Source: Gamsiella multidivaricata
Lineage: Eukaryota; Mortierellomycota; Mortierellomycetes; Mortierellales; Mortierellaceae
Direction: 5' to 3'
DNA length: 64,000 nt
Assembly (NCBI RefSeq): GCF_025024155.1
Contig: NW_026251760.1
Location: 213,956 to 277,955 of the forward strand
Below, in pieces: positions 18,146 to 54,926 of this stretch (position 1 is the stretch's first letter; the number at the start of each line of letters is the position of its first letter). The notes below the pieces were generated by a model, which was not told the DNA's origin, ran no database searches, and worked only from the letters and a program-made list of their open reading frames with translations. The position numbers and the translations under genes were made by a program.

Positions 18146-18326
18146 CGCGCCTTAGAAAGCACATAGACTGTTGCTATTACAACCAATTCATGGGAGCTAT
18201 ATCAGCATCCCTGTTTATCGTTTCCACATTTTATTATTATGGAGGATTGACTATCAAGGGTAACAGAACTGTAGACAAATTGTAGAGAAAGAGAGAAAGA
18301 ACTCTGGCATGGTTGCGCAATGCCGT

Positions 18327-21300
18327 CTAAGGAAGGACCACCATGCCTGTGCCTGTGCCGCCGACCTGCGAGATGTCGCAGATTGTGCAGAGGTTGCCCT
18401 GGAACTCTGGCTTGAAGTGGCCGCGACAGTACGGGCACTGCACGCTGGGCGACCCGCGGTAGATGGGCGTGTACGAGATGCCGCACACAACAAACGAGTT
18501 GTACTATATCATGAGCAAAAAACGAAACCGGGATCATGCAGTGGTTAGCACAAGGAAACGAAAGAGCTCCATTCCATTGCCTTGAAAAAGGCACCGCCAT
18601 CCGCATATTCTTCCTGACTTGTATATGTTACCTGGTCGTAGTCCAGCTGGATCTCGTCCCGTGGGTTGCGCTCAGCAACTTGCTGGATCTGCCGTGCTAG
18701 CGTCGCTGCCTGCCCAGGAGGAGCCAGCTCCAACAGGCGACGTGCAAACGTCTGTGCAGACTGCAGGTTCTTGTGCTTGTAACAGGCCGTCATGGCCGTG
18801 CGTAAGCTAATGATCATGTGCCTAGGCTGGAGCTGGACCCCTGTGAAGTACGCCGCGAGCTCCAGCATCCTCTTGACGCCTGCCGCCGACCCATCGTTCT
18901 GCACCTCACGGCGACTCAGCTCAATGCTCAGTCCGAGGATGTATTCACGGCAGACACCCACCAATTGAAGCACCTATGTGGAACAAACGGGGCACACAAA
19001 ACAACCAGCACGTCGCCTATTAGTTTCTTAATCGCTCATACCTGCAACACATCATGCCCTCGTGCGTCCTTTATAGATCCCTGCCATACCTCCTCTGCCT
19101 CTGATGCTTGGGTGACCACTGTCAACAGCAGCGAATGCAGGATTCCTCTGAACAATGTGCACGCCTCTGTAAGCTTGTTCGATGTCGTCGCCTTGTATGC
19201 GTCCTGCAGCTCCTTGCTGATCAGCGACTGGAAACTCTTGACCAGCACAGGCAGTGCCTTTCTCTGGTCGGTCTCTGCAGGGTTGCGCCGCACTGGCAGC
19301 ATGATCGAGGGCATCCCTTCGTTTCCTGTGACGATCGCACGGCTGGCTTGGAAGATGGACAGGAAGTGGTCCTTCAGCGGCTCAAAGTTGACAGCACCAA
19401 CCTGGCGGTTCAGCAGCTGGTGACATACGCGACAAGAAAAGAAGAAAGAAGAAGGAAGGAAGAAAGAGGAAAGAAAGAAGAAAGAAGAAAGAAGAAAGAA
19501 GAAAGAAGAAAGAAGAAAGAAAAAAGAAGAAAGGGATCAGCTGGGAGCCATCAAACATGGCCGCATTAGCTTTCATATAGCAACGCTTCCCATCACCGTA
19601 CCTGCATCGCTGACTCAAACGCGCCTGCTGCGACATGATCCGCAGCCAAGGGCGAGTTCTGGCACCAGATCTCAGCCTCACTCTGGCCTGCAACTGGAAT
19701 CGTCAGCCCGCTGTCCTCTGCAACAATCGCCCCTGTCTCTGCATGGAGCTCTGCTGCAAGGTCTGCGTCCAGATCCCATCCACCATCGCCGTCCATGTCC
19801 AGTCCATCGTTGGCCATAGGAGCCAGTGAAGTTCCGTTATGACCCGCCGATGGGACACTGAACTCGTCATCCATGCCCCACTGATCCGCCTGAGCCTCGG
19901 GCTCCGATGCAGCGATCGGCTCTGGCGCTGCAACCCCCTCCATGTCTCCAGAGAAAACGCTCTCAAAGTAGCTGCGCGAGACCGCTAGCTGGGGCCAGTT
20001 CGAGTCGTGCACTTGCATCAAAGGTCTCGGCGGCACCAGCAGCGTGCCCTGGCTAGGCAGATCTGCAACGTCCTCAGGGGTAAGTCCAGCACTCTCGAGG
20101 ATCTCGTCTGCAATCTCGTCCATGCCATGTGTCCTTGCAGTCAGATATGCCAACGGTGCTAGTCATAGGCACAACACAGATGTCGAACAGTACGAAATAA
20201 ACAGCTGTCAGTCTTTGCCCATAGCCTTCCCAGTCACTCCTGTTCAGAAGAGCAAAAATGAAAATAAAAAATACAGAATACATGGCATGCCAGGCAACCA
20301 CCGAAGCACTGCCCATTAGCTGCTCGCAAACCCATGACTCACCTTGACCAACCTCCCGCAAAAGACGGACGCGCTCCTCCACATTGCCCAGGAAAAGCGA
20401 GTTGTGGAACCGCGACATGGCATCGCCTCGCTTCTCTGCAATCATCAACATCCTGGACAGGTTGTTGGCACTGCCCGTCGCCAAGTAGAGGAACGAGAGC
20501 CGGTCAAAGTTCCTGACTCTTTGGTAGCACAGCTCCACAATCTGGTGGTTGCCCTGACGGAGCGCCTCCTGTGCTAGCTTGTTCCAGTACTCGTCCTTGT
20601 TCATCGCCTTGGCAGTCTCCAGTCCGACCTCCAGGTTGCCACACTCCAGCGCAAGCTCGAACCGCGTCTTGTCTTCACGCACAAAGTGGAGTGCAATCTC
20701 AGGGTATCCCTTCTTCTGCAAGTACGCAATAATCGACTGTCCCACCAGGTTGGAGTTACGAATGATCTGCAGAACCTCGTCATAGTTGCGCTTCGTCAGC
20801 GCCAGCTTGAACCGGTACTCGGTCGGGTCGATCGCAATCGTGCGCGTCTTGCCGTCCCGATCCAGACAGTACACATTCTTGCCTCGGATCCGTGTCAGGT
20901 AGATGGGCTGGTCAAGGGTGCGGATGATGCCATTGTCCCTAGAAAGAAATTAAGCACACAAATGAACAGTGTCAGCTAGTCTCACACATGGATTCGCATT
21001 TCATGGCCCACCCGTAATCCATAGCAGCGCCGCCAACCTACCCCTGAGGAAGTGCGTATTTGATGTGGTTCAGCGTCGAGTAGATCAGGATCCCGCTCTC
21101 GTCCCACGCCGCGCTCTTGATGCGGATCGTCTCGTGGATAAGACACGTCTGCTCCAGCGACTTGGTGGCAATCGTGATCGTGTGCTTGCTGAGAAGCGCA
21201 ACATAGGCCATGTCCGCCGACCACACCACATACTTGACCGGGGGCGTCGTCACCTCGGAAATGGTCCTGCGCTGCTGGATATCGTACAGGATCACAGAGG

Positions 21301-23423
21301 TAGGCGTGCTGAGCAAGAGCTGTCCCGTGCCCGCATAAAAGATCTCGTTCACCACATTCGGGGTCTTGAACGACTTGGTGCTGTTGTTCTGCAGATCTCG
21401 GATCGTGATTGTCTGGTTCGCCTTCTCCAGCACTGCAAAGCGGTTGCGCGCAATAAAGATCGCCGAATTGCCTGAGCCACGCTTGCCGTCGCCCGTAGGC
21501 TCCCGAGCATCGCCCCCAATCTCCTTGGGAAGACTGTACAGCTCATACGTGCCTCCATCAGCCGTCGACGTGACCAACACCGCGCGTTCTGCCGGGTTGT
21601 ACGACAGCGCCCTCGGCTGCACAAATTGCGATCCTGTCCTGCGCACAGAGAGAACAGCCGTGTCCTGAGAGTTGGAATAGTCGTGCACGCGGAGGTACTT
21701 GTCCTTGATGTAGTACAGGCTGTTCTGGTGCACAGCATACGCTGGCCGCTCTCTCTCCAATTTGAACACAATCAGCCCATTGTCGTGACCTGGGCATAGC
21801 GTTTCAGCACAAGAACACACCAAGACAGTTAGGACCCAGTCACTCCATCCCACGTGCATGCGAATACCTATCATGCACAACAACATGCAGTCTGATCAGC
21901 GCCGATATACATACCGGCTGCAAACAAGTTAAGCTCAGGATGGGCCGTCAGCGCCCAGAATCGGTCGTGCTCGCGTCGGAAGGTCTGAACCGCTGTGCGC
22001 TTGGACATGTCCCACACCCGGATGCACTTGTCCTCGGCAACAGAAATAATGAGCTCCTGCCGGTGATGGAAGATCGCGCACGATACGTTGTTTGTATGGC
22101 CTCTGCAGGTGTCAACCTCCCAAGCCTTGGTTTCTACAGAGATTCAGGCCGATTAGCAGAGGCAAGAGCAAACGTCCGTATTAACATGTGCATGTGCATC
22201 ATCTCCTGTCGTTGCTGGAGAAAGAAGAAAGAAGGAAAGGGAGGAGCAGGAAAGCACCCTTGCACATCGCCATTAATTGCCATCAATTACCATTCATCCT
22301 CCACAGCTTGACTTGGCGATCGTCGCCGGCAGACACAATCAGCGGCAGGGTAGGGTGGAATGTCGCCCAGTTGACGCTGCGGTCGTGGCCCTCGAGAACG
22401 TACTTTACAATAGCATCCGTGCTTCCAAAGATGTCCGCCTGCTGTGAGGCACGATGCGCGCTCTCGTCGTACGCAACCGTCCCTGGCGCCGCGTTCTTCT
22501 TTCGCAGTCCTGTTAGAGTCGTGGCAACAAAGAGGCAGAGTAACAAACGACGTGTTAGAACGAGAATGGCAACAGCCGTTATAGCAGCAACTATTCCCAC
22601 ATAGTCATCCAGCGATATTGGCGCCTATTGTCAATAATCCCCCATCCTCTCTCCCCCCTCCCTTCCGCTTATCACCCTTTATCGCCTCCACATAACCGCT
22701 TGCAAGACTTGCCTGAGATGTCCCAGACACGCACGGTCTGGTCCAGCGACGCCGACACAATAAGATCCTCCTTGGGGTGGAACTGCGCGCTCATCACATA
22801 GTGGTTGTGTCCGGTCAGGATGGCGATGCAGTTGCGCGACTGCCAGTTCCAGATGCGGATCGTCTGGTCGTCTGAGCAACTCAGGATCCAGGGGTATTCG
22901 TGGTGGAAGTACACGGTGCGGACATAGTCCAGATGGCCCGTCAACGTAAACTGGCAGCGACGCGTCTTGTAGTTCCACACCTTGATCTTGTAGTCGTCTC
23001 CTGCCGATACAAACAGTGGCTGCGACGGATGGAACGCGATTCCTCGGACGGGACCTGACAAAACAAGCGGCACAAACAGAGGAGCGATCAGAAAGAGCAC
23101 CATGTCGGTCATCTGCACCCGGCCACCATCTCTAGCTTCCATGTGCTGCACATACCATCGTGTTCATCAAAGCGCTCCAAGAGGGTGCCCATCCTGTAGT
23201 CCCACAGCTGGATCGAGCCGTTGTGGAGGGCTGCAAGGATCCATGGTCGCTTTGGATGAAAGGCCACGCCCTTGACGCGATTGCTTTTGGACTCGAACTA
23301 TCATCGGAGTCGTTGTGTCCAGGATGTTAGTACAGGCATTGCCAAGTGATGGCATGGGTTCGTCTTGAAGCGACCCGCAGCGAAGAACCAGACAGCGAGC
23401 GATACCTTTGTGAGCATCTGCAT
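18327..23423 (-). CDS. COP1: Coatomer subunit alpha (alpha-COP), copy 1
   Basis: Scaffold subunit of the COPI coat that recycles cargo from Golgi to ER. Eleven exons on the minus strand: 23423-23406, 23297-23156, 23054-22713, 22509-22291, 22133-21915, 21789-21042, 20938-20343, 20158-19602, 19416-19042, 18973-18632 and 18503-18327; 3,735 nt, 1,244 residues, close to yeast and human alpha-COP. It starts [16 protein letters not shown]. Seven N-terminal WD40 repeats follow (for example [17 protein letters not shown]), then the second beta-propeller, the alpha-solenoid, an acidic linker and the COPI C-terminal domain ending in a Cys-rich [20 protein letters not shown]. Exon 3 ends at a GC donor (GCAAGT). 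The same gene recurs 31,503 bp to the right with apparently no change. Confidence 0.96.
19431..19538 (+). repeat. GAAGAAA/GGAA purine microsatellite in an alpha-COP intron
   Basis: About 105 nt of almost pure A/G built from GAAGAAA units, inside the intron between exons 8 and 9. The same length and pattern occurs in copy 2 at 50934-51041. Confidence 0.9.
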
Positions 23424-23771
23424 CGTGAAAAAGATGAACTAGCGGTGGACGTGGTAAAGATGGTTCGCACACTCACTCGCTGCAGTCTCAGTTCCTGGTT
23501 GCGAGGCCAATGAAAAGAAAGATGCAAGAGGGGATGAGTATTGAGGTTTGAAGGTATTCAGTCGATGAAAAATAAAGTGATGAGAAATGGAAGAAAGGAC
23601 AGGTTTTTCGCGCCCTAGACTTTTCTGTACACACTCTAAACGTTCACTCAAGCAAGCAATTGGCTGTGCGAGACGTAGATGGTTCTAAGAACGTGGTAAA
23701 ACACTTCTCTTTTATTACTTGCGCATCGTCTACTTGATATGAGCTAGGTCCCTCGGATAGAAAAAACATCT
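23424..23771. other. alpha-COP copy 1 promoter and uS14-1 3' flank
   Basis: No gene seen. This 5' flank shares nothing obvious with the flank of alpha-COP copy 2. Confidence 0.5.
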
Positions 23772-24391
23772 TTAGCGGGTCTATGAAGACAAAAAACATC
23801 GTTAGCCTTGGTGTACCACTTCAATTGCTGAAAATTCAACCAAGGAGGAAACATTACCTTGGTGAAACCGATGGCGGCAGAGTTCTCACGGAAGCACTGA
23901 CGGCAAATGTTGAGGCCGTACTTGCGGATCAAGCCAGCGGGGTGAGTGCAGACACGGCTATTAGGGATGAAGCATTGGTTGAGCGAGCGATTAATCCAAT
24001 TGATTCAAGGAACTAGGATAGTACTGAGTATCATATAGGCGAACGGTTTCCATAGAAGTCGTTTTGCTGGCTTCAGGTACTGGTAGCTGTGCCCAAAGGC
24101 TGCTTTACTAAGTCCTGGTCTTGCTACAAGCAACCTCCTTGTAGCAGATATGTGTTCTATGGTCGATAGGGCGATTTCACTCCGACTGCCTTGCCAAAGC
24201 CCGGCTCCATTGGGTTTGATCTGTCATTCGTGATGTAGTCCGATCGTGCTGTCTTATTGACGCAACCTTGCTTTCTAGTTTCTCTGTCTTTCGCCATTGC
24301 CTTCATGGAGCAAAGCTTCAACCGCTTACCACTCGCGGGAGCCCTTGCCATAGCCACGGGGGTGGGAGTTCCAGATGTTACTATGAGCCAT
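23772..24391 (-). CDS. RPS29: 40S ribosomal protein uS14 (Rps29), gene 1
   Basis: Small zinc-binding protein of the 40S ribosomal head. Three exons on the minus strand: 24391-24330, 23957-23858 and 23780-23772 (171 nt, 56 residues, the usual length). Exon 1 starts [20 protein letters not shown]; exon 2 gives [20 protein letters not shown]; the zinc ligands are the two CxxC pairs (CRVC and CRQC). The last exon is 9 nt and encodes only Thr-Arg and the stop, after FTK. Splice sites are GTAAGC/TAG and GTAATG/TAG. It differs from gene 2 only at silent-looking positions in the parts compared. It lies between alpha-COP copy 1 and the 3' end of TOP3, on the same strand. Confidence 0.93.
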
Positions 24392-24711
24392 GATGATCGA
24401 TCCGAAAAGTTGAAGCAAAAAAACATTCCTGTGATTCCAAGAACAAGTACCTCAAAAACGAGATTGTCACGTGCGGTAGGTCATTTTCAAAATTGACGCG
24501 ATTTTCTGTGGCCCAAGATTTAGACGCACTGGTCCGAGGGTTAACGACGACTTTAAGAACAGAAAACGCTACTCATCCATAATATTCTTACGAAGGACTG
24601 ACAAGATCAGATTGAAAGACATAGTCATAAAGTGTCGTTAAATAGAAATACAAGTTTTATTATCCATATATATGATGAGGTAATCAACCGTGATCGGGCC
24701 GAGAAGATTTT
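24392..24711. other. uS14-1 promoter and TOP3 3' flank
   Basis: About 320 bp without a gene between two minus-strand genes; it must hold the TOP3 terminator and the uS14-1 promoter. AATAAA-like signals for TOP3 are not clear. Confidence 0.4.
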
Positions 24712-27700
24712 CTAGATCGGACGCGCCTTCTTGCTCACCCGTACAGCCGCAATTCCGCTACGTGAAGTCGTAGCTTTCTTGGAAGTGCCCTTGGCCCTTG
24801 TCTTTGTAGAGGTACCGCGCTGTTTCTCGGCCGGTGCAGTGCACGCGTTTGCGAAATGGCCCATCTAGACAAGCATGACACATAATAATAATATTAGGAA
24901 AACGTCAGGTATAGCAAAAGGGCAACTGGATACTTTCATCGTAACAGCAGGACGTGCATATGTGCATCTGGTGCCATGCATTCACCTTTTGGCATTTGAA
25001 GCACGTTTTATCCGCTTGAAAAGAGGAACCGCCGTGCTGCTGTTGCTGCCCCGCTGCTTGGCCTGAGTTCAACTCGTCATCCCACTTAAAAAAATCGCAG
25101 CCTCTCTGCTTGCTGCAGCGCCAAAACACTCGCCCGTTGTTCTTCGATGACTTCAGCTCCATGGCTACCAGCCCGCAGAGACACCTGGGCTTTGTCTCTG
25201 GTGCATTTCCTGTCTGCAGATTTTGAATGAACGCCTCCATGACAGCCTGTAAAATCCACATGATAAGAGTGAGATAAACCCAGAGTGGACGACAGCATAA
25301 TGTTAGTTTACGCATTCAGGCCTTCAATCAAGTCTAACTAAGGCTACATAGCCCTGTAGCCATAAGTGTAAAAATATATATAAAAGCCTTACTTCGTTGG
25401 CACGCTGCGGAAATGTCTCAACTGGATGGTGTTGTTGATGATGATTTGTCGATCTATGGCTCAATACTCCCGCATCCTCTGCGAAGGCAAAGAATCCACA
25501 TTGTTGTTCGCGGGGCTTGCTGCATGTGAAAAACAGCCGTCCTTGGTTCTCGCCTTCTTTGACCACCCTCCTTTCAACAGCAGGAGGGCGACCATCACAA
25601 TGGCAGATGACCGCAGCAGCGGATCCTGTGGTTGATAGGCCCCTAGATAATTGATGTGTCTGAAGAAAGGCGGCGCTCGATCCTACATTGCCAGAACTGA
25701 AATTGTTGCTAGAGTTGGGACGGACGCTTCCATCCTGGGCCTGGCCATGCCCATCTCTGGGGTTCCTTGGCGCAGGCTGCCCAGCTGGTCTAGGAGGAGG
25801 GGTTGGTTCTCTGCGTCGTCCAAGGTATCGTTCCAAAGACTAAAAGACCATGCGCAATAAACTGTTAATTTCATCCGTTATTTTTTGACGGGGACAAATA
25901 AGTCGCTGTCTTCGTACCTCCAGCAGCACCCGCTGATCCCGGTTGACAATGTCAAAGACATTTCGGTACATGTCGATGCTCTCTCTGACGACCCCCTCTT
26001 TTGTCTTGTTTCCAGAGCAGATGAGCTTAAGATTGTTCTCGAGCTAATAGCGGGAAGAAAATAGATCAGGATGTGCTGACAACTCCCGCACTGTCAAAAA
26101 TGACTTGTCAAGATGCGTCCATTGACTTTACCTCACTTCTTAAAAAAGGCTTCGACAAACTCTTGTCCAGTCCAATATTATCATAACCTTCGACGAGAGC
26201 GATCCCAAGAGTAGATGGCGTAAAAACATATTCTCTGTCGCTCTTACTCCGCACAACGTACTCCCGCTTCGTAATTGTCTTGATGTGCTCCGCAATGGTA
26301 GCATCCGTGCCTTCAGTCGGTGCAGAAAAACACAGAGGGGAGGTTAGAACCTGAGTCAATACCGAGTACGGTTCATTTGCTGGAATACATACCAATGCCG
26401 TTCTTATCCATCAACGCGATGAGCTGACTCTCCGTCAGCAGTGTAGGCGGACTGGTTGCACCGGATTTCATTGAAAATTCTTTAGGTATAAACTCTTCGC
26501 CTTCAACAAAGTTTGGAAGCACGTTTCCAGTCCACTTGTCGTAGGGATAAACATCCAAATAATTCCGTTCTTTGATGATCAGCCCTGTCGTCTTAAAGGT
26601 CTCCGTGTGAATCCTGACTTCAATGTCCGTCTGGTCGCCTGCTGCATCTTCAGCGCAGCAGGCCAGAAATCGACGAGCTATGAACTCGTACACCCGCTTC
26701 TCATTACCGTCCAGGCTCTCCGTATGCATAACCGGGTGAATAGGTGGATGAGCTTGATCATTATTCTTGCCCTTCCTGGGGTTACGATAGCCACCTTCGG
26801 TCAGTCGTTGGGCGAATCGACCCCACTGAGTATTGTGCGTCTGTTTCTCTATCAGCCCCATCAAGTCGTAATTCAAGTCAAACTGGTCCGTTTCCGTCCT
26901 TGGATATGAGATCCATCCCTTTGTATAGAGACTTTCTGCTGCCTATGTGTTTCCAGCGATTTATAAATACAACGGTACTAAATATCGTCAGCAAAAAACA
27001 TGACAATGATCGTTCCTTAGAAAGCAAACGACCAAGGCACTTACGGTCATGACCTCATCGGACGGAATTGAGAGAAATTTGGATCCATTTTTCTGAAGTT
27101 CAACGGTAGTGAGCGGCAAGGGCCTGCTATAAGAATAGTTATGTGTCCCATTAATCGGTGTCAGTAGCACAGCATCACGACGGCCATCAATCAATACTAC
27201 CATATACAAATTTAGCTTACTATTTCTTAGTAGGAAGGGACTTGACTTTTGTCACAAGCGCATTGCGACTGAGATTCTCGAGACAAGCCTCATAGATAAT
27301 CATGCATGCCAGCTGGTCAAACAGATGTCCGCGTTGCCATGTAAAAGTTGCATCGACGCCGTCCTTGCTGTGCTTGACCTCCAGTTTCCAAAAGGTTTCG
27401 GGTATAAAATTCTCCACTCGTCGGTACTGGTCCACCACAAAGCCCAGAGTCGGAAACTGGCATGGACCTACGTTTAAATGAAATCCGTTCACGCAGACAT
27501 TGTTAACTCATTGATAGTACGCACTGCTGACGTTTAGTACCGCAGCTTGTCTGATCAGAGCACATGCAGCCGACCGAGTTCGCACATACCATAGCTAATC
27601 ACGCCCTCTGCCAACTCAGGGAAGCGGCCCTGGAGGGTAAGGGTTTGAAAGCGTGTGAAAGATGCGCCGATCCTAAGGTCCAGTTCTATCCGTGCATCAA

Positions 27701-28486
27701 CGGCGTCGGCCTGGCGCATATCTAAATGAACAGGGTTTTGCATGGCTCTATGCACCTCACTAGAAGAGTTTGCTGGCGGCAGCAGCAGTGGTGTCAGCAA
27801 AAGATGAGCTGAGGTATACAGCCTTTAGCTGTCATATGAAAGACACGATCCGACTTACGCTGGAGTAACGGAGCTAAAGCGTGCTCGGCATATCTTCAAC
27901 CGGCGATTCTCGCGTTGGCATACGTTGGCGATCTCTGCTCCGATGTTCTCCCCTTCTCGATCACAATCCGTCCAAATCATAACCTGGTCTGCCAACCGCG
28001 ATTCCATTGCAAGGTTTCTTTCCACTGAAATCAAATCCTGCGTGATGAAAGGGCCAAGAAAGATGAGAGTGTTAGAAGGGCATGATTCCAGTATGATCCC
28101 AGCATCCAATTCCAAGATAAGGTACATATACCTTAGACGTCGCCTTTTCTACTTGGAGCTCAAAAAGCTGGACAGGAGCGCAGCTGCCCCATTTTCTATA
28201 TTGTGTAGGAAAGTCCGTGCTCATCAAGTGTCCACGCACCGCGGTCATGACTACGTGAGTCATCGTGTTGTTCGGTAGCCTATACGAAAACTCAAAGTTG
28301 CGCGTGTATTGATCGTTCGTTGGCCGCTGTAGAAGATACTGTTATTATACGTTCATGATTTGGAAAATAAAAAAAAAAGATACTGCCAATAAATTGTCAA
28401 CATACCGTAGTGTATTGCCCATTGGACAGAATCGCTGCAAGGGACTTTGACATTGCTGGCTTCTCAGCAACGCAGAGAATCCTCAT
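24712..28486 (-). CDS. TOP3: DNA topoisomerase III (type IA) with GRF and CCHC zinc fingers
   Basis: Type IA topoisomerase that works with a RecQ helicase to dissolve recombination intermediates. Twelve exons on the minus strand: 28486-28406, 28326-28132, 28037-27859, 27759-27590, 27467-27221, 27126-27045, 26942-26393, 26310-26132, 26043-25918, 25839-25393, 25246-24986 and 24864-24712; 2,670 nt, 889 residues. The TOPRIM domain opens MRILCVAEKPAMSKSLAAIL and carries the metal motif WTDCDREGENIG. The catalytic tyrosine is in GWISYPRTETDQFD. The C-terminus has two GRF-type zinc fingers (from CHCDGRPPA and from CLCGLVAMEL), a CCHC knuckle (CFKCQKMGHFANAC) and a basic tail. The ATG at 28486 is the only one in its frame after an upstream stop. 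The layout matches animal TOP3A more than budding-yeast Top3. Confidence 0.95.
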
Positions 28487-29042
28487 GGTGGCATTCAGTA
28501 ATGCTCTGTATGAGTTGCAAAGTGTAACGATTGGTGGCGCAAAGAAGCAAAAACGGTTGGCTCGGCGAATTCAGATGGATGTCGACACTGGCTTTGTCCA
28601 GGTGTATCCACTTGTAGCTGTGGCCGTAGTTAGCAAGACTAATGAAGCCTCAGTATGCTTCGGTGTACAAGGTTGCCACGCAGCGTCTCGCTTTTCCGTT
28701 GCAGGGTTGGTCGAAGTATCGAAGTATGGCGGTTTAGTTGAAGAAACAAACAAGGTCGCGAAATAAATTTTAATATATAATTGAACACCAAACCTCTTCT
28801 AACTGAAGTTCAAGTCAATTCAATGGGCCCTGAGGTACCTCCATAAAGTCAAAGGCCGAGCCCTAATCGATAGCACCAAGCAACCCCAAAATAGCTCCAT
28901 ATAGCAAACATGTTCATTGAACATTTATTCATCAACAAGTCTTGTGCTACAACAGGAAACAAGGACATGCTAGAAAATCGAATCTTTTATTCCAGCGAAC
29001 GCGCGAACACGGTTGCCGTAGTTTCTAAAAACGATGTAGCAT
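28487..29042. other. Intergenic, TOP3 5' end to uS14-2 3' end
   Basis: No gene is supported. The open frames opposite the TOP3 start are shadows without any family signature. Confidence 0.45.
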
Positions 29043-29771
29043 TTAGCGGGTCTAGACCGAGTAGGGAAGATAATCACAAAATTAGCTCATGACATACGAA
29101 GGCAACCGAAGTCGACAACTTCAAATAACAACTGCATTGCAGCCAGTAGACGAACCTTGGTGAAACCGATGGCGGCAGAGTTCTCACGGAAGCACTGACG
29201 GCAGATGTTGAGGCCGTACTTGCGGATCAAACCAGCGGGGTGAGTGCAGACACGGCTAAAATAAAAACAGTGAAGAAAATAGCGTCAGGAGCTAGCGATA
29301 AATAAAGGATAGTGCTTATCCAGGAACAGTCGTCTGTCGACATTGATGATACAGAAAAGCCGAGTCGCTTGTTGGGTGCTGAGGCGTCACACTTCATCAC
29401 AGATGTTATGGCAGCGACTAGAGAATCGAAGAATCGATCCTACATAGGTCCGCCATCCAGCTCAAAGCCATCCTGAACATAAACGCTCGCAAATCGTTCG
29501 CCACCAATTGACCATAGATCCCACATGCAATTGGCATGCGTCCGCTGAGAAGCGATGTTGAACATGGCCGAATCGAATTGACTGGCATTGTAGCAGGATT
29601 CCAATGAGCCGCATGGATGATGATCGATTCCATGAATAGAAAAAAAAGTCTCTCTCCTGTATCCTGCGAGGTCTATATAGTGCAGTGGTGCAATGGTGTA
29701 ATTGCTTACCACTCGCGGGAGCCCTTGCCGTAACCGCGGGGGTGGGAGTTCCAGATGTTGCTGTGAGCCAT
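29043..29771 (-). CDS. RPS29: 40S ribosomal protein uS14 (Rps29), gene 2
   Basis: Second uS14 gene with the same three-exon layout as gene 1: 29771-29710, 29255-29156 and 29051-29043 (171 nt, 56 residues). Both genes have exons of 62, 100 and 9 nt with introns at the same codons, so they are paralogues. Protein landmarks are identical ([18 protein letters not shown] then Thr-Arg). The second intron starts GTTCGT, an unusual donor; reading through instead would add an unrelated tail, so splicing is the better model. The first intron is about 450 nt. It is divergent from NOP2 with 316 bp between start codons. Confidence 0.92.
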
Positions 29772-30087
29772 TTTGTGAATTCGAAGTTTGGATTCAAAAG
29801 CGAAAAGAAGGATCTTCTGTGGGTTGGGTGCCACCTGCAAGTAATAGCCAAATGGAAAAAATTATCCGGTCTCCTGATTGGTTGGCATGGGTCAACGTAA
29901 GCCACAGAGTCGGATTGTGTACGTGAAGTTCGTGTACTGAAGCAAGCGTCGTGACCGTGGATCGACTGTAAAAGAAACAAACAAAGCAAAAAAAAAAAAG
30001 AAGCGAACCTACTTGAACCTGTAAAAGTCACCTTCAGAGTTCCGTCGTCCACACCCACTACCACCTTCTTCGCCCTTTCATTCCCAA
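29772..30087. promoter_or_regulatory. Shared divergent promoter of uS14-2 and NOP2
   Basis: 316 bp between two divergent start codons. Both products serve ribosome production (a 40S protein and a 25S/28S rRNA methyltransferase), so joint control is plausible but inferred. A poly-A run (29989-29999) lies within it. Confidence 0.5.
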
Positions 30088-34647: not shown

Positions 34648-34675
34648 GAGTTGACCGGGCAACTCAGGTCAACTC
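34648..34675 (+). repeat. 28-bp dyad motif, copy A
   Basis: GAGTTGACC ... GGTCAACTC dyad around GGGCAACTCA. It is the reverse complement of copy B apart from two substitutions. Confidence 0.75.
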
Positions 34676-35122: not shown

Positions 35123-35150
35123 GAGTTGACCTGAGTTGTCCAGTCAACTC
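35123..35150 (-). repeat. 28-bp dyad motif, copy B
   Basis: Inverted relative to copies A and C. A and B together could be the ends of a small (about 500 bp) MITE. Confidence 0.7.
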
Positions 35151-37759: not shown

Positions 37760-37851
37760 AAATGTATACACTCATATTTAATTTCTTTACATAATATGAA
37801 AAACTTTCAAATGCAGCGGAACTAAAAAAAAAAAGGTGGGGCCTTGATGGT

Positions 37852-42953: not shown

Positions 42954-43069
42954 TAAATGACGGCCGCATCAAAGCCATTGAAGTAAACCATTACGGACCT
43001 TCGCTTCTCTCTCTCTCTCTCTCTCACAACTGTACAATTTATTAATGCCCTGTTCGCTGTTTGAGAGCT

Positions 43070-44075: not shown

Positions 44076-44411
44076 GGCGATCTCTCTCTGTGTGGTTAGA
44101 TGTGATGATGGAAAGAAGCCTTGGGCGCAGGGCGATGTCGTTTATCGCGCGCGGGGTGACTGTTCGTCGAATCAAATGAAAGTAAAACATACACAAACAA
44201 AAACGCGTCGCGAATGCGAGCTCCATCGTGTTCATCAACCATCGCTGTTTCGGGACGTATAGAAAAGGACCTGTTCATATACAAGTCAGCTCTTCTGGCG
44301 ACATTTCTCTATACCTCGCTGTTCGTTGTCCGATATTGCTATCCTAATTTGCCAAGGACACAAGGCAGACAACAAGAGACGGGAGCATACATATAACTAT
44401 ATATACCAAGG
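44076..44411. promoter_or_regulatory. Shared divergent promoter of DPB4 and SLD5
   Basis: 336 bp between start codons of two replication-fork subunits. An ACGCGTC sequence at 44202-44208 resembles the MluI cell-cycle box (ACGCGT) known from fungal replication genes, and ATCGCGCGCGG near 44145 is GC-rich. Co-regulation at G1/S is inference. Confidence 0.5.
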
Positions 44412-45619
44412 ATGTCTGCCGACGACGACGACCTCTTCCTGGACGACTTTAACTACAGGATTCCGACTTCCCGGGATACCGCAGAACCAGCAACAGATCC
44501 CTCTAAATACGTTGAGCATCTCGCACAGGCATGGATCAACGAACGTGCAGCACCAGATATCCTTCAGTATGAGAGATCAGCAATCGATGGTCTTCTTGCC
44601 AAGATAGAAGAGCAGGTTAGGGGCGTATTTATCCCTTGTGCTACATGGCTCCCAAAGGCTGGAAGCATTGATCATGCATATTCACATTTTCTATGCTCAT
44701 TCCTCTTTATTCCAACGCATGTAGACCGCTATCATCGACGAATTGGACGCTGGCAATGATACATCAATGATTATATCAATCCTTTACCAAACGGAACTTG
44801 AGCGCGTCAAGTTTGTGTTGAGGAGCTACTTGAGGACGCGGATATCCAAGGTAACCAACTCTGGACGCCATTAGGGCTTGCGAAGTTGAATTTGTTTATT
44901 TGCTTATTGTGTGCTTCTTGGCACCTCTTCGGTGCTGACAGATCAATCCGGCTGATTATTACATGTTGTCGTAGATCGAACGGTTCTGCGAGTTCATCCT
45001 TGCCGACCCCGCCTCAAAGAAAAGACTTTCCAAAGCAGAAGTTATCTACGGGGAAAAGTAAGTCGCTTGGAGCAAGCGCGGTGTATGGACCAAGGATGCT
45101 GCACAGCAATAAAGCCACACATCCTAACGCAGGGTACCTATCCAGCTATTCGAGGGCAACACGACAACACTATCACTCTAGTTTCCTGTCCTCACTGCCT
45201 CCCTCGCTGCAAGGTCAAGACGATGCGATCTTTGACAGGAAGCTAAGCATGAGTAAGCGCCTGTTGCCACGAAAGACTGACGACGCACGTACCACTTGAG
45301 AGGAATAGATATCAACGTGTTTGTCGCTCCAAAATTTCTGCAATGTAGTATCGCAGCCCAGACTGGACGAGGCAGTCTTTTGCCGCATCATCGAGGACAT
45401 CGGCGACTTTCAGCTGGATGAGTGAGTGCATGCACACAAATGCTGCTCATGTCGCCCATGCTCTCTATTACAGTCTCACTCATTTTTTATACCTTCTGCT
45501 TTCCTATGCCTACTGTCGATAGAGATGAGACAGTCGTGCTGGAGACAGGTCAGATCTACATCTTTAGATACAAAACTGTGCGCATGCTGCTCCAGCGTGG
45601 TCAAATAGAGCTCATCTGA
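44412..45619 (+). CDS. SLD5: GINS complex subunit SLD5
   Basis: Subunit of the GINS tetramer, part of the CMG replicative helicase. Exons: 44412-44615, 44725-44850, 44975-45057, 45146-45252, 45349-45421 and 45523-45619 (690 nt, 229 residues, a typical length). The A domain contains PSKYVEHLAQAWINERAAPD and ILQYERSAIDGLLAKIEEQ, then SILYQTELERVKFVLRSYLR and RLSKAEVIYGE. HYHSSFLSSLPPSLQ follows. The C-terminal B domain ends DETVVLETGQIYIFRYKTVR and MLLQRGQIELI, the hallmark of Sld5. Exon 4 is entered at TATCCAG rather than the earlier GCAG, since only that keeps the frame. Confidence 0.93.
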
Positions 45620-45941
45620 TGGTACGGGCATACTCCTTTAGCTATCATCGGTGTCAGTTCTAAATAAAATCTGTATTATAGTGCATCAAATGCCTCGCCC
45701 CTTGTTTCCTGTAGCAGACCATCTTGCACTGCGTTGTACAGGCCCATGCGATATAGGAAATACGTACAGCATTCATGGGTAGATGCTTTAAGATGTCATG
45801 ATAACACGCCCAGTACTCGCGTTGTCCTGGCTGTTCTGGTGACCTTGACCCCCGACCCTGGCCGTTGCTTGTTGCATTGGCTGTTAAAGAAGCGTACCCA
45901 ACTTCTCATCGCTGCCGGTCTCTGCTCAAAAAGGTGTGTGT

Positions 45942-45998
<57 letters not shown>

Positions 45999-46254
45999 GA
46001 TAAAGGGGAACACGGGGGTAGAGCATCCCGCAGGGTGCCATCTCTTCTATCATGCAGTATTAAGCTCTCCATATCCCCTTGACCCCTTTCATTAGTTTTT
46101 ACCGTCCTTCTTGATCGGGATCTTTGGTGGCCCCTTCTCAGCTCGCTTTTCTTAATTCCTTAAGCTACCCTCTTTTTCTTGCCGTCTCTCTCTCTTTCTC
46201 TCCCTCTTTCTGTCTCTCCCTCTTCCTGTCTCTCTATTCTCTGCTCTCTGCTCT
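45620..46254. other. Intergenic with GT microsatellite, 42-base G run and CT-rich tract
   Basis: After the SLD5 stop an AATAAA (45664) is present. A (GT)n run leads into an unbroken G tract (45956-45997). Beyond 46140 the strand is strongly CT-rich, typical of a promoter/leader for the next gene, whose first exon I could not place. Confidence 0.6.
45934..45997 (+). repeat. (GT)11 followed by a G tract of 42
   Basis: GTGTGT from 45934, then 42 consecutive G to 45997. It could form G-quadruplexes. The exact length is doubtful because homopolymers this long are error-prone. Confidence 0.85.
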
Positions 46255-47538
46255 TTGCTCTGCTGCAATTTCTGCTTTCAAAAAGCCAGAGGCGATCATA
46301 TCAAGACTGGAAATGTGCCTATTCTTGAAGAGTACCTCGCAGCCGTCTTGGCAGTCTCTGCTTTGCCTCCTCACAGTTTATTCAAGGAACCGGTGCATGC
46401 TTTCCGGATTATTTACTGTTTCAATATACCCAACGCTGACATGGATCCAATTGCAACTGACCAGCTCGACAACAATACTCTCGGGTAATGAGAAGCATTT
46501 GATAACGATTTTTTGCGATAATCTTTCCTAGGAGGAAGACAACTAACCTCCAAGGGACTTCACACCGTTCTATCCCCACAAAGCACGGGCAACCAAGCAG
46601 TATTCATAGCAAAGGTTCTCGCTATCACTGCAGCTTCCATACTTCTATTGGCGGTCATCTGTTGTATCTATTCCGGAGCTGCAAGAAGACAAGCACGCCT
46701 TGAGCACGCAGCCCTACAGGGTCGATCCTCTGTAGGCAATGAAAATGAGGCACATGAAGCGGGAAGACGCACTCCAGACGCAGCTCCGGCCTATTCCACC
46801 ACATCGCCCCTAGGCCCTCTAAGTCCAGAGATTGTTAATGCCATTAGTAGCGCCTCGGTCGAGCGCAGACAAAGCATTGTAACATCCATATTGTCCTCCT
46901 CGCGGTCACAGCGATATAGATTAGATACTTCGTCCATGGACCTCAGAGTTGGCACTGCTCAATCTTCCATGATCTCCTCGATCGAGGAAGTGCCTCCGAT
47001 ACACTCTCTTGGCACCTCGCCGCGCTCATCCCTAAACAGCGACTGGCCCTACGAAGACATTGCAGGACAGGGACGCGTTCGCGGGATCGATGAACCGCTC
47101 TGGGTCACTCGAGAGTCGCACGATATAGAGGCGGACTCGATAGCGCACATGCACCAGGCGCCGCCTTCGTACGACCCTTCATGGTGGACAGCATGGCATG
47201 CACATCATCACCACACAATCCAAAACCGATATCGACCGCCTTTGGGACAGGAAGCAGGACAGCCTCTAAGCAGGAGTCAGCAGCTTGTATTGACTGCATC
47301 TCATCGACGTACCGAATCTCTTAGTAGCCCTTTGGGAGGAAACCCTCTACAGCTCTCTCTGGCATATCGTCGAGGACTGCTCAGGCGTGCAGCATGGCCT
47401 GCTTCTGGTCGATCTCTCTCTTGGACAGGAGAACCCATTGCACACAGCTACACCCCCACTAGGATGTCCTTTCATACATCCTCTGATAACTCTAATCAGC
47501 TTGAGGCAGTTTCCAGTCATTCAGTGGAAGATTCATAG
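46255..47538 (+). CDS. Single-pass membrane protein with a PPxY motif, 5' end unresolved
   Basis: I do not recognise a named family. The best model joins an exon ending at 46484 (protein includes HIKTGNVPILEEYLAAVLAV and HAFRIIYCFNIPNADMDPIA) to one starting at 46539 through a 54-nt GTAATG/AAG intron; this is the only junction that keeps both coding-like frames. It leads into a membrane span, VLAITAASILLLAVICCIYS, then a positively charged GAARRQAR and a tail of about 280 residues rich in S, T, P and R. The tail carries PPSYDPSWW, a PPxY-type WW-domain ligand, plus PAYSTTSPLGP. Topology (N-terminus outside, tail in cytosol) follows the positive-inside rule. A Rsp5/Nedd4 adaptor role is speculation. 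No start codon could be assigned. Confidence 0.55.
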
Positions 47539-47827
47539 CCTAAAGCCGCCACAATCCATCTCGAGCAGTAATAAAAAGATCTTTTGCATTTGCGAACTTG
47601 AATAAATTGTTATCAAAAGTATAGATAGAAAGCGCCGTGTGTCCTTTTAATCATGCCAGAATGAAGTGGGTACCAAAATAGTGTTGAGGACAAAGTATAG
47701 AGTATTCGAGAGGACAGAATACTGAACTACTGAGCAGGAGCAGTCGTGATCGCATCTGTGCTGGTGCCAGCGGTTGTGCCCACGTTAGGTTTGACATAGG
47801 GCGAGGCAGCCGCGGATCTGGGAGAAC
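47539..47827. other. Convergent intergenic region
   Basis: About 290 bp between two convergent genes; AATAAA-type signals occur at 47569 and 47601. No gene seen. Confidence 0.5.
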
Positions 47828-49144
47828 CTATCTTGTTCGACCTAGCCAATTCTCGTTTTCCTCAAAGGCAACGGTTCTGTCGTCAGTGATCGGAAGAGCG
47901 CCAGGATGAGCTGGCTGAGTCGTGTTGACCTCGATGCTTGGTTCAGGAACCATGCCCTCCTCGGTCGACGCTCTTGCCGGCATGTTGATTCCTGTAATGG
48001 TTCGTACTGCTACGGCCCCGACTTTATAAATTGTCGTAACCCTTTTCATGGTAGCCGTTGCTGTATAGATCGCTTACATGCGCATCCCTGTTCCTTCGCT
48101 TTCCTCCACCAAGTGTACTCAGCTGGTGGCGCTTGGTGGTGAGGGACGTTCAAGTGGTCGCTGCTGCCGTACTGACTACCCCAGTAGTTACCGTATTGAC
48201 TGCTGCGGCTGTGGCCTCCATATAGTCCATAGCTGCTGTTGACGGAACGAACGGCGTTTACGGGTGTCCATGCTCGCTGACAACACAAATAGAGCCGCTA
48301 TATACCCGGTAAGGCATAACGGAGGTGCGCAGAAGAAATACTGTAGTTTTCGAGGAATCCAGGAATATGCCCAGACCTAGCTTGAACATGCATCCGCCTA
48401 GACTCGCAGATGTAGAGTGAGGGGATTTTTGTGCTTTAGAAAAACTTTGTCCAGACTCACTACTGGCGGAACGAACACGCAGCTCGCCTTGCCGATGAGG
48501 ACAGTAGCAAAGACAGCTATGGGGGTGCCAAGGAACAGCGAAAGGAAGACGCCAATAACTGCAGCACCAGCCATGAAGAAGATACGCCCGACGGCATTGT
48601 GGATCTGTCCACCTTCTCTTCAACCCAAAATGTACACTCCAACCTAGTCATGTTGCCTAATGACTACATAAGACCATTCATTGCTCTTGTTTCCGGCGCC
48701 GTTGCCTCCCGCGCCTTCCATGATCCGCCGGTCATAACTATTTATGATCATGAGGACCACACTAATAAGAAGACCGGCAGCAATGCAGACTGCAACATAG
48801 ATCAAATACAGTCGGATCAGAGATGGCTAGGCTCAATATTCAAGAGGATAGCGTATGCAGCGATGCAAACTCACTTCGTTGGACAAGTGACGATCTATAC
48901 AGATATAGCAGGACAAAAAAACAGCAGAAATACCTCCACCCACAAAACCTGTCAAGAACACCAAGAACCTAAGAAGGCGGAATCCGCAGAGTCCAAGCAC
49001 CAGTCCCACTGCCAGTAGTACTCCCCCCAGAGATGGTCCGCTTCCAACCCAGTGGGGCCTGGATGCGGTCGTAGTTGTTCGAGAAAAAGCCTGAAGTGCT
49101 GGACGAATCGTAACGGTATCAGGGTCAAATGACGACGTGGCCAT
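47828..49144 (-). CDS. Multi-pass membrane protein, TMEM198/DUF4203-like
   Basis: Likely polytopic membrane protein of unknown function. Minus-strand exons: 49144-48934, one beginning at 48789, about 48615-48457, 48397-48306, 48276-48078 and 48009-47828. The first gives GGVLLAVGLVLGLCGFRLLR then FLVFLTGFVGGG, the start of a DUF4203-type bundle. VCIAAGLLISVVLMIINS and GRIFFMAGAAVIGVFLSLFL, then GTPIAVFATVLIG and FKLGLGIFLDSS, are further spans. The soluble C-terminus is Ser/Tyr/Gly-rich, then acidic. The end of exon 2 is unresolved: the readable frame runs on through DRRIMEGAGGNGAG, but only an earlier GTTATG donor has the phase the next exon needs. Family assignment rests on span pattern, not a catalytic motif. 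Confidence 0.6.
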
Positions 49145-49829
49145 ATCACCTTGGAGCTACGGTGGAGTTCCATTGTCAGCTTTACTCATTTGAACGCTCT
49201 CTAAAGGCGCTGCCTTCAAGCTAACGTGTAGTTCCTGAAGAGCAAAACTCGAGGCAGAACGCTTCTTCTTCATGTGGATCAAGTCAGCAGAGTCTATATT
49301 GCTGGTAGCCTATGAGAAAACAGGGCTGAGCACAGATGTACTAATGACAGGGGTTAAGACGAATGCAATATGCGTGGATGGAGAATGATGCGCTGAGAAG
49401 GAATTGTTTTATCTTATGAACTTGAAGAATGAAATGGAATAAAGAGAGAGTGAGAGAAGTGAGAGACAAGGAAAATAGATGTGTAGGTATTCAAGGCTCT
49501 CGTCGGTCAAAACCATTGTCGTTGTCATCATCATTAACACTCTTTTTTGTCCGGGAGCAGCCTCTGGTCTCAGGAGCTACCTTAATAAAGTCATGGTTAC
49601 AGCGCCACGATGCTCGATTCCCCCTATGAGATAGTCTTAGGTGAAGCAGCGTAATTTGTTTCCGTTCCTGTGTAACATGGTCTGTGCATTCCAGCAACAC
49701 ATTACTATGTGATATATATCCATGTTACTCATTTTATTATTGTGGGGGATTGATTCTCAAGGGTAACAGAACTGTAGACAAATTGTAGAGAAAGAGAGAA
49801 AGAACTCTGGCATGGTTGCGCAATGCCGT
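49145..49829. other. DUF4203-gene promoter and alpha-COP copy 2 3' flank
   Basis: No gene seen. The last 100 bp (from about 49727) is the edge of the alpha-COP duplication, where similarity to 18224-18257 fades. Confidence 0.5.
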
Positions 49830-52800
49830 CTAAGGAAGGACCACCATGCCTGTGCCTGTGCCGCCGACCTGCGAGATGTCGCAGATTGTGCAGAGGTTGC
49901 CCTGGAACTCTGGCTTGAAGTGGCCGCGACAGTACGGGCACTGCACGCTGGGCGACCCGCGGTAGATGGGCGTGTACGAGATGCCGCACACAACAAACGA
50001 GTTGTACTATATCATGAGCAAAAAACGAAACCGGGATCATGCAGTGGTTAGCACAAGGAAACGAAAGAGCTCCATTCCATTGCCTTGAAAAAGGCACCGC
50101 CATCCGCATATTCTTCCTGACTTGTATATGTTACCTGGTCGTAGTCCAGCTGGATCTCGTCCCGTGGGTTGCGCTCAGCAACTTGCTGGATCTGCCGTGC
50201 TAGCGTCGCTGCCTGCCCAGGAGGAGCCAGCTCCAACAGGCGACGTGCAAACGTCTGTGCAGACTGCAGGTTCTTGTGCTTGTAACAGGCCGTCATGGCC
50301 GTGCGTAAGCTAATGATCATGTGCCTAGGCTGGAGCTGGACCCCTGTGAAGTACGCCGCGAGCTCCAGCATCCTCTTGACGCCTGCCGCCGACCCATCGT
50401 TCTGCACCTCACGGCGACTCAGCTCAATGCTCAGTCCGAGGATGTATTCACGGCAGACACCCACCAATTGAAGCACCTATGTGGAACAAACGGGGCACAC
50501 AAAACAACCAGCACGTCGCCTATTAGTTTCTTAATCGCTCATACCTGCAACACATCATGCCCTCGTGCGTCCTTTATAGATCCCTGCCATACCTCCTCTG
50601 CCTCTGATGCTTGGGTGACCACTGTCAACAGCAGCGAATGCAGGATTCCTCTGAACAATGTGCACGCCTCTGTAAGCTTGTTCGATGTCGTCGCCTTGTA
50701 TGCGTCCTGCAGCTCCTTGCTGATCAGCGACTGGAAACTCTTGACCAGCACAGGCAGTGCCTTTCTCTGGTCGGTCTCTGCAGGGTTGCGCCGCACTGGC
50801 AGCATGATCGAGGGCATCCCTTCGTTTCCTGTGACGATCGCACGGCTGGCTTGGAAGATGGACAGGAAGTGGTCCTTCAGCGGCTCAAAGTTGACAGCAC
50901 CAACCTGGCGGTTCAGCAGCTGGTGACATACGCGACAAGAAAAGAAGAAAGAAGAAGGAAGGAAGAAAGAGGAAAGAAAGAAGAAAGAAGAAAGAAGAAA
51001 GAAGAAAGAAGAAAGAAGAAAGAAAAAAGAAGAAAGGGATCAGCTGGGAGCCATCAAACATGGCCGCATTAGCTTTCATATAGCAACGCTTCCCATCACC
51101 GTACCTGCATCGCTGACTCAAACGCGCCTGCTGCGACATGATCCGCAGCCAAGGGCGAGTTCTGGCACCAGATCTCAGCCTCACTCTGGCCTGCAACTGG
51201 AATCGTCAGCCCGCTGTCCTCTGCAACAATCGCCCCTGTCTCTGCATGGAGCTCTGCTGCAAGGTCTGCGTCCAGATCCCATCCACCATCGCCGTCCATG
51301 TCCAGTCCATCGTTGGCCATAGGAGCCAGTGAAGTTCCGTTATGACCCGCCGATGGGACACTGAACTCGTCATCCATGCCCCACTGATCCGCCTGAGCCT
51401 CGGGCTCCGATGCAGCGATCGGCTCTGGCGCTGCAACCCCCTCCATGTCTCCAGAGAAAACGCTCTCAAAGTAGCTGCGCGAGACCGCTAGCTGGGGCCA
51501 GTTCGAGTCGTGCACTTGCATCAAAGGTCTCGGCGGCACCAGCAGCGTGCCCTGGCTAGGCAGATCTGCAACGTCCTCAGGGGTAAGTCCAGCACTCTCG
51601 AGGATCTCGTCTGCAATCTCGTCCATGCCATGTGTCCTTGCAGTCAGATATGCCAACGGTGCTAGTCATAGGCACAACACAGATGTCGAACAGTACGAAA
51701 TAAACAGCTGTCAGTCTTTGCCCATAGCCTTCCCAGTCACTCCTGTTCAGAAGAGCAAAAATGAAAATAAAAAATACAGAATACATGGCATGCCAGGCAA
51801 CCACCGAAGCACTGCCCATTAGCTGCTCGCAAACCCATGACTCACCTTGACCAACCTCCCGCAAAAGACGGACGCGCTCCTCCACATTGCCCAGGAAAAG
51901 CGAGTTGTGGAACCGCGACATGGCATCGCCTCGCTTCTCTGCAATCATCAACATCCTGGACAGGTTGTTGGCACTGCCCGTCGCCAAGTAGAGGAACGAG
52001 AGCCGGTCAAAGTTCCTGACTCTTTGGTAGCACAGCTCCACAATCTGGTGGTTGCCCTGACGGAGCGCCTCCTGTGCTAGCTTGTTCCAGTACTCGTCCT
52101 TGTTCATCGCCTTGGCAGTCTCCAGTCCGACCTCCAGGTTGCCACACTCCAGCGCAAGCTCGAACCGCGTCTTGTCTTCACGCACAAAGTGGAGTGCAAT
52201 CTCAGGGTATCCCTTCTTCTGCAAGTACGCAATAATCGACTGTCCCACCAGGTTGGAGTTACGAATGATCTGCAGAACCTCGTCATAGTTGCGCTTCGTC
52301 AGCGCCAGCTTGAACCGGTACTCGGTCGGGTCGATCGCAATCGTGCGCGTCTTGCCGTCCCGATCCAGACAGTACACATTCTTGCCTCGGATCCGTGTCA
52401 GGTAGATGGGCTGGTCAAGGGTGCGGATGATGCCATTGTCCCTAGAAAGAAATTAAGCACACAAATGAACAGTGTCAGCTAGTCTCACACATGGATTCGC
52501 ATTTCATGGCCCACCCGTAATCCATAGCAGCGCCGCCAACCTACCCCTGAGGAAGTGCGTATTTGATGTGGTTCAGCGTCGAGTAGATCAGGATCCCGCT
52601 CTCGTCCCACGCCGCGCTCTTGATGCGGATCGTCTCGTGGATAAGACACGTCTGCTCCAGCGACTTGGTGGCAATCGTGATCGTGTGCTTGCTGAGAAGC
52701 GCAACATAGGCCATGTCCGCCGACCACACCACATACTTGACCGGGGGCGTCGTCACCTCGGAAATGGTCCTGCGCTGCTGGATATCGTACAGGATCACAG

Positions 52801-54926
52801 AGGTAGGCGTGCTGAGCAAGAGCTGTCCCGTGCCCGCATAAAAGATCTCGTTCACCACATTCGGGGTCTTGAACGACTTGGTGCTGTTGTTCTGCAGATC
52901 TCGGATCGTGATTGTCTGGTTCGCCTTCTCCAGCACTGCAAAGCGGTTGCGCGCAATAAAGATCGCCGAATTGCCTGAGCCACGCTTGCCGTCGCCCGTA
53001 GGCTCCCGAGCATCGCCCCCAATCTCCTTGGGAAGACTGTACAGCTCATACGTGCCTCCATCAGCCGTCGACGTGACCAACACCGCGCGTTCTGCCGGGT
53101 TGTACGACAGCGCCCTCGGCTGCACAAATTGCGATCCTGTCCTGCGCACAGAGAGAACAGCCGTGTCCTGAGAGTTGGAATAGTCGTGCACGCGGAGGTA
53201 CTTGTCCTTGATGTAGTACAGGCTGTTCTGGTGCACAGCATACGCTGGCCGCTCTCTCTCCAATTTGAACACAATCAGCCCATTGTCGTGACCTGGGCAT
53301 AGCGTTTCAGCACAAGAACACACCAAGACAGTTAGGACCCAGTCACTCCATCCCACGTGCATGCGAATACCTATCATGCACAACAACATGCAGTCTGATC
53401 AGCGCCGATATACATACCGGCTGCAAACAAGTTAAGCTCAGGATGGGCCGTCAGCGCCCAGAATCGGTCGTGCTCGCGTCGGAAGGTCTGAACCGCTGTG
53501 CGCTTGGACATGTCCCACACCCGGATGCACTTGTCCTCGGCAACAGAAATAATGAGCTCCTGCCGGTGATGGAAGATCGCGCACGATACGTTGTTTGTAT
53601 GGCCTCTGCAGGTGTCAACCTCCCAAGCCTTGGTTTCTACAGAGATTCAGGCCGATTAGCAGAGGCAAGAGCAAACGTCCGTATTAACATGTGCATGTGC
53701 ATCATCTCCTGTCGTTGCTGGAGAAAGAAGAAAGAAGGAAAGGGAGGAGCAGGAAAGCACCCTTGCACATCGCCATTAATTGCCATCAATTACCATTCAT
53801 CCTCCACAGCTTGACTTGGCGATCGTCGCCGGCAGACACAATCAGCGGCAGGGTAGGGTGGAATGTCGCCCAGTTGACGCTGCGGTCGTGGCCCTCGAGA
53901 ACGTACTTTACAATAGCATCCGTGCTTCCAAAGATGTCCGCCTGCTGTGAGGCACGATGCGCGCTCTCGTCGTACGCAACCGTCCCTGGCGCCGCGTTCT
54001 TCTTTCGCAGTCCTGTTAGAGTCGTGGCAACAAAGAGGCAGAGTAACAAACGACGTGTTAGAACGAGAATGGCAACAGCCGTTATAGCAGCAACTATTCC
54101 CACATAGTCATCCAGCGATATTGGCGCCTATTGTCAATAATCCCCCATCCTCTCTCCCCCCTCCCTTCCGCTTATCACCCTTTATCGCCTCCACATAACC
54201 GCTTGCAAGACTTGCCTGAGATGTCCCAGACACGCACGGTCTGGTCCAGCGACGCCGACACAATAAGATCCTCCTTGGGGTGGAACTGCGCGCTCATCAC
54301 ATAGTGGTTGTGTCCGGTCAGGATGGCGATGCAGTTGCGCGACTGCCAGTTCCAGATGCGGATCGTCTGGTCGTCTGAGCAACTCAGGATCCAGGGGTAT
54401 TCGTGGTGGAAGTACACGGTGCGGACATAGTCCAGATGGCCCGTCAACGTAAACTGGCAGCGACGCGTCTTGTAGTTCCACACCTTGATCTTGTAGTCGT
54501 CTCCTGCCGATACAAACAGTGGCTGCGACGGATGGAACGCGATTCCTCGGACGGGACCTGACAAAACAAGCGGCACAAACAGAGGAGCGATCAGAAAGAG
54601 CACCATGTCGGTCATCTGCACCCGGCCACCATCTCTAGCTTCCATGTGCTGCACATACCATCGTGTTCATCAAAGCGCTCCAAGAGGGTGCCCATCCTGT
54701 AGTCCCACAGCTGGATCGAGCCGTTGTGGAGGGCTGCAAGGATCCATGGTCGCTTTGGATGAAAGGCCACGCCCTTGACGCGATTGCTTTTGGACTCGAA
54801 CTATCATCGGAGTCGTTGTGTCCAGGATGTTAGTACAGGCATTGCCAAGTGATGGCATGGGTTCGTCTTGAAGCGACCCGCAGCGAAGAACCAGACAGCG
54901 AGCGATACCTTTGTGAGCATCTGCAT
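49727..54926 (-). repeat. Right copy of the 5.2 kb direct duplication (alpha-COP gene)
   Basis: Direct repeat of 18224-23423, same orientation. The upstream match ends at the start codon: copy 1 has CG and copy 2 TT (plus strand) immediately beyond it. Confidence 0.93.
49830..54926 (-). CDS. COP1: Coatomer subunit alpha (alpha-COP), copy 2
   Basis: Same 11-exon, 1,244-residue alpha-COP gene as copy 1, every boundary shifted by 31,503: 54926-54909, 54800-54659, 54557-54216, 54012-53794, 53636-53418, 53292-52545, 52441-51846, 51661-51105, 50919-50545, 50476-50135 and 50006-49830. Synonymous sites, introns, the GC donor of exon 3 and the GAAGAAA microsatellite appear the same. Only the promoter differs: this copy is divergent from the SET-domain gene. 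Both copies look fully functional, so they would supply one protein under two controls. Confidence 0.95.

Follow-up and report, generated by a model that had tools for sequence, protein, structure and literature searches.

Results

The locus and its gene models

The window analysed here, a stretch of 64,000 nucleotides, corresponds to C129:213956-277955 in the Gamsiella multidivaricata genome (37.5 Mb, 180 contigs) and extends to the contig end, which lies 9.07 kb past the second of two alpha-COP genes (copy 2). Whereas the coatomer (COPI) alpha subunit is usually encoded by a single gene, here two identical genes are found in one contig as direct repeats with four different flanks (Table 1). 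Splicing yields the same model for both (11 exons, 10 introns of 101-203 bp and 3,687 nt with the stop counted), and both copies hold an intact, spliceable frame for the same 1,228-aa coatomer alpha subunit. Residues 3-1226 match the solved coatomer alpha subunits 9qpq_D and 5a1u_C end-to-end (E=0), and by this similarity both genes encode the COPI alpha subunit. A codon-usage exon scan found little besides alpha-COP, and NCBIfam gave no match for the relative P0001.

Searches of the genome located gamma-COP and beta-COP at a single place each, so that an increase in dosage of the whole coat is unsupported. Separately, PF04053 was also found at C171:93013-93747 and C20:87182-88151 in addition to the alpha-COP pair, and beta'-COP may be present twice.

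Direct repeats with four different flanks are also what the single-crossover integration of a circular element carrying alpha-COP would leave, with the copies standing around a 26.3-kb insert. However, the interval between them carries ordinary genes (a topoisomerase with GRF zinc fingers, the RPS29 genes, an RsmB/F-type rRNA methyltransferase and an aminotransferase) together with dispersed repeats, and no phage, virus or plasmid family was found among the Pfam-scanned ORFs; we regard such an origin as scarcely credible.

Table 1. Coordinates of the alpha-COP genes, their edges and their neighbours in the window.
Feature	Coordinates	Strand	Remarks
alpha-COP copy 1	18254..23423	-	ATG to 73 bp beyond stop, 100% identical to copy 2; CDS 23423..18327, 11 exons
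alpha-COP copy 2	49757..54926	-	Identical block; 5' neighbour is the alpha-COP neighbour by locus tag in Linnemannia zychae
Faded 3' edge, copy 1	18224..18253	-	24/30 matches with 49727-49756; contains shared motif AATAATAAAATG
Faded 3' edge, copy 2	49727..49756	-	24/30 matches with 18224-18253
Intronic AAAGAAG/GAAGAAA microsatellite, copy 1	19438..19533	-	Repeat array inside identical block
Intronic AAAGAAG/GAAGAAA microsatellite, copy 2	50941..51036	-	Length and sequence as in copy 1, same offset
Intergenic 348 bp, RPS29 copy A to copy 1 ATG	23424..23771	-	No other genome match; 23446-23537 is weak homology trace to copy 2
Intergenic 580 bp, copy 2 to divergent neighbour gene	54927..55506	-	Pyrimidine-rich, CAAAATG at start; 54946-55036 is weak trace
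RPS29 copy A	23772..24391	-	3 exons, intact; directly upstream of alpha-COP copy 1; named by eye
RPS29 second copy	29043..29771	-	Intact; named by eye
BC939DRAFT_458045, divergent neighbour of copy 2	55507..57458	+	Protein 100% identical to that G. multidivaricata entry

Identity of the two gene bodies

In a base-by-base comparison 18254-23423 and 49757-54926 were 100% identical over 5,170 bp at an offset of 31,503, a block that spans the 11 exons, the 10 introns, the microsatellite and 73 bp past the stop. The original prediction of a recurrence at this constant offset, with no net indel in exons, ten introns or microsatellite, is thus borne out over the 5,170 bp without a single difference; over the full 5,200 bp of 18224-23423 against 49727-54926 there are six substitutions (at 18224, 18226, 18239, 18243, 18251 and 18253), all of them in the first 30 bp. 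Zero differences in 5,170 bp correspond to an upper 95% bound of ~5.8e-4 per site. Because the identical sequence includes 1,410 bp of intron and the microsatellite, purifying selection alone is excluded as its cause, and since introns and microsatellite agree to the base the gene bodies had a common sequence very recently. The unselected interior (introns, microsatellite) is identical while the flanks differ, a pattern typical of gene conversion. Two other origins were rejected, namely a retrocopy, given that the 10 introns are present in both copies, and a tandem or segmental duplication that included the flanks, into which the high-identity homology does not extend.

The edges of the identical block

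On the 3' side the stop codon ends at 18327 and the following 73 bp are still identical, after which the two copies fade over 30 bp in which 24/30 in-register positions match (chance ~6e-10) and copy-specific bases are kept. A fade past the stop codon had been noted before, with a length of about 35 bp; it exists, but it begins 73 bp after the stop and spans 30 bp. The score of the 60-bp 3' flank was reached by 0/400 and 0/1000 shuffles (the 1000 being dinucleotide shuffles) and by 0/1000 real stretches, while that of the next 170 bp beyond the edge was reached by 45/1000 shuffles and 32/1000 real stretches and does not make a convincing case for homology. The motif shared by both copies within this edge (Table 1) looks by eye like a poly-A signal on the coding strand.

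At the 5' end the last position of perfect identity is the A of the ATG (23423 and 54926), and inside the alpha-COP gene there is no fade towards this end. We compared the upstream flanks against base shuffles, dinucleotide shuffles and real stretches of the window, and found that the outcome varied with the length of flank considered. The first 13 bp in register have 8 matches (P 0.006), yet the score of the first 60 bp taken alone is reached by 365/400 shuffles, and the best score over 200 or 400 bp by 2/400 base shuffles. A gapped alignment that is displaced by 3 bp and spans ~20-115 bp before the ATG has 61 identities, 26 mismatches and 9 gaps (~70% of 87 aligned pairs). For a 120-bp flank, a length picked after seeing this alignment, the score was reached in two runs by 0 and 1/1000 dinucleotide shuffles and by 0 and 0/1000 real stretches; for 200 bp, also in two runs, by 31 and 29/1000 shuffles (5 of the 29 near the diagonal) and by 1 and 3/1000 real stretches; and for 400 bp by 13/1000 shuffles (1 near the diagonal) and 6/1000 real stretches (0 near the diagonal). 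This weak, nearly in-register trace is probably a remnant of diverged 5' homology. That homology ends at the start codon, as had been proposed, agrees with the perfect identity and with the first 60 bp upstream, but not with the diverged trace that likely survives ~20-115 bp before the ATG.

From their position the 348-bp intergenic region should hold the promoter of copy 1 (promoter 1) and the 580-bp region that of copy 2 (promoter 2). The earlier suggestion of one protein under two different promoters is in keeping with two intact frames and with upstream DNA that is not recognisably alike beyond ~115 bp, although calling these promoters unrelated would be an overstatement should the 5' trace prove genuine.

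Further copies and flanks in the genome

A DNA search of the genome with alpha-COP gave five matches, namely the two copies, two pieces on contig C48 and one on contig C108. The last of these (~62 bp) falls in the intronic simple repeat, whereas the C48 pieces form a degenerate alpha-COP fragment, interrupted by stops, that comprises exon 9 and portions of exons 10 and 11 (L036:5314-5891). Over up to 111 residues this fragment has identities of 85/111 with Gamsiella, 85/110 with Mortierella sp. GBA43, 83/111 with Lunasporangiospora, 81/110 with L. elongata, 77/110 with Haplosporangium, 66/111 with A. wolfii and 44/57 with the cut protein of L. zychae. Since it is not clearly nearest to the Gamsiella alpha-COP, this argues against a recent offshoot, and the fragment may be the relic of an older second alpha-COP lineage, though a decaying stretch of 111 residues is no basis for dating it.

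Searches with the flanks returned only self-matches for 23424-29900 and 39001-44999, and for 45000-49724 and 54927-64000 matches elsewhere only in stretches of <100 bp; 10900-18223 and 29901-39000 contain dispersed repeats, mainly at ~16.4-17.2 kb and 33.5-37.8 kb. Haplotype duplication was rejected for the flanks searched (within 10900-64000), as these are not doubled: apart from the dispersed repeats they are single-copy, which makes a duplicated haplotype unlikely.

These searches also bear on whether the pair might be an assembly artefact, a collapse or chimera in which a single gene, or two slightly different copies, were doubled or made identical by the assembler. Assemblers can erase small differences between copies, and the contig does end not far beyond copy 2. 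However, each of the two different flank pairs (four junctions) would need junction-spanning reads, copy-specific bases survive at the 3' edge, and no haplotype duplication is seen in flanks that are otherwise single-copy or dispersed repeat. We therefore think an artefact unlikely.

Neighbouring genes and synteny

Relatives of BC939DRAFT_458045, the divergent neighbour of copy 2, are named SET domain-containing protein by their sources, and Pfam found no family in it at E 0.01. In L. zychae the neighbour FBU30_003330 and alpha-COP FBU30_003331 carry consecutive tags (with 57,064 bp given as the longest contig in both entries), whereas the corresponding tags are far apart in A. wolfii (BGW42_008010 and BGW42_008522) and in Lunasporangiospora (BGW38_000970 and BGW38_010979, whose contigs measure 8.8 and 26 kb), so that the two genes are adjacent by tag in 1/3 relatives with both tags visible. 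The consecutive tags in L. zychae suggest that copy 2 occupies the ancestral place.

Discussion

Origin of the alpha-COP pair

Taken together, the sequence comparisons described here lead us to favour, somewhat above even chances, the view that these are two real alpha-COP genes that arose by an older duplication and were later homogenised by ectopic gene conversion. In such a scenario the older duplication would have put the second copy (copy 1) beside RPS29 while copy 2 remained beside its ancestral neighbour, and the unselected flanks would then have drifted apart, so that little similarity remained farther than ~115 bp from the ATG on one side and past the poly-A region on the other. The gene body would have been overwritten in one or more recent events of ectopic conversion, for which a transfer from copy 2 to copy 1 that involved no crossover is the simplest course, and the cell could thus produce a single alpha-COP protein under two different upstream regions. 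The 24/30 in-register edge directly adjoins the perfect block, which is how a conversion tract would be expected to end, and the weak 5' trace would be the same signature on the other side. The C48 fragment, in turn, would accord with an older second alpha-COP lineage. A crossover between the direct repeats would delete the topoisomerase, the two RPS29 genes found and the RsmB/F-type methyltransferase, and for this reason we infer that non-crossover repair would be favoured. On the other hand, the diverged 3' edge is only 30 bp long, and mutation associated with a breakpoint could mimic such an edge. Also against this view, the 5' trace is weak in a flank length picked afterwards, the gene shows no fade inside its 5' end, and in two relatives the tags of alpha-COP and the neighbour gene are widely separated.

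Indeed, edge substitutions left by error-prone repair, or by a partly matching target, are part of a one-step recent copy, in which RPS29 would recently have received as its neighbour a gene-sized piece of copy 2 that runs from the ATG to slightly beyond the poly-A region. The sharp 5' end of perfect identity and the zero interior differences would fit such an insertion, as would a DDE_Tnp_4 transposase ORF (15334-15648) and the dispersed repeat at ~16.4-17.2 kb near the 3' side of copy 1. However, it would have to place six substitutions within 30 bp at one edge beside 5,170 clean bp, it does not account for the probable diverged trace upstream of the ATG, its breakpoint would fall exactly at the ATG by coincidence, and no repeat of at least 40 bp was found at the block ends. 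Because clean edges would be expected of a one-step copy unless the repair was mutagenic, conversion fits better; moreover, a stretch of 80% identity on one side of the perfect block and probably ~70% on the other favours conversion acting on an older duplicate. We consider the one-step copy a possibility worth keeping in mind, although a rather doubtful one.

A further variant ties conversion to the transcription unit, such that the interval from the ATG to the poly-A signal would be renewed, one protein kept and the two promoters left to evolve freely, which would place a COPI cage subunit under a dual control open to selection. We hold this to be quite improbable. Conversion confined to the transcribed unit is not needed as a mechanism, since almost nothing convertible remains beyond the gene. 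The three explanations initially offered for the pair (recent duplication, gene-confined conversion or artefact) are supported in part: older homology plus conversion is favoured by the faded 3' edge together with the weak trace upstream of the ATG, and the flanks, which are not doubled, oppose a duplicated haplotype.

Relation to known systems

Homogenisation by conversion of this kind has precedents. In Arabidopsis halleri, ectopic gene conversion homogenises the coding sequences of the HMA4 paralogs, whose promoters keep their own history (PMC3749932), and the alpha-COP pair resembles them in that a coding sequence would be homogenised while the promoters follow separate courses. It differs from the plant case, in which conversion among three tandem copies was shown with population data (PMC3749932), in that the Gamsiella pair consists of two copies in a single genome. 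Similarly, a study of Aspergillus flavus/oryzae describes ectopic gene conversion in which non-allelic paralogs of a fungal chromosome region take part, although conversion there goes along with gene splitting, mutation and loss (PMC12844118), whereas in Gamsiella the essential gene is intact. Judged from titles and abstract openings, none of the papers listed on Gamsiella or on coatomer duplication (for the latter, 15 of 72) reports an alpha-COP duplication in Mortierellaceae. The homogenising process itself is already known, and the Gamsiella alpha-COP genes would appear to be a tidy further case of it. If real, they offer a clean fungal example of an essential gene that gained a second promoter with its protein unchanged through gene conversion, as well as a warning that duplicates with identical introns can readily be taken for errors of assembly.

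Other features of the window

Several further observations concern the surroundings of the pair. The two RPS29 genes are separated by 5 kb and differ at 7 synonymous positions in 171 nt, so that the 56 aa they encode are the same; their exon stretches align and their introns do not. On the 3' side of copy 2, at 47.8-49.2 kb (-), lies a TM7S3/TM198-like gene whose coding pieces occur in several frames, with stops, and for which the public model BC939DRAFT_478965 gives 175 aa; it may have many short exons or be a decaying gene. A synteny search with it passed 2 proteins, one of them Gamsiella's own, probably owing to search length limits. At 8514-10786 there is a DNA transposon that carries a DDE_1 transposase ORF and whose terminal inverted repeats are perfect over 78 bp, and at 34619-37788 a repeat with 38-bp terminal inverted repeats (~95% identity) that has 80-94% copies on other contigs; Pfam found no domain in four ORFs inside the latter. 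Finally, a TGCGTAGT repeat array occupies 63906-63982, inside the terminal 100 bases of the contig.
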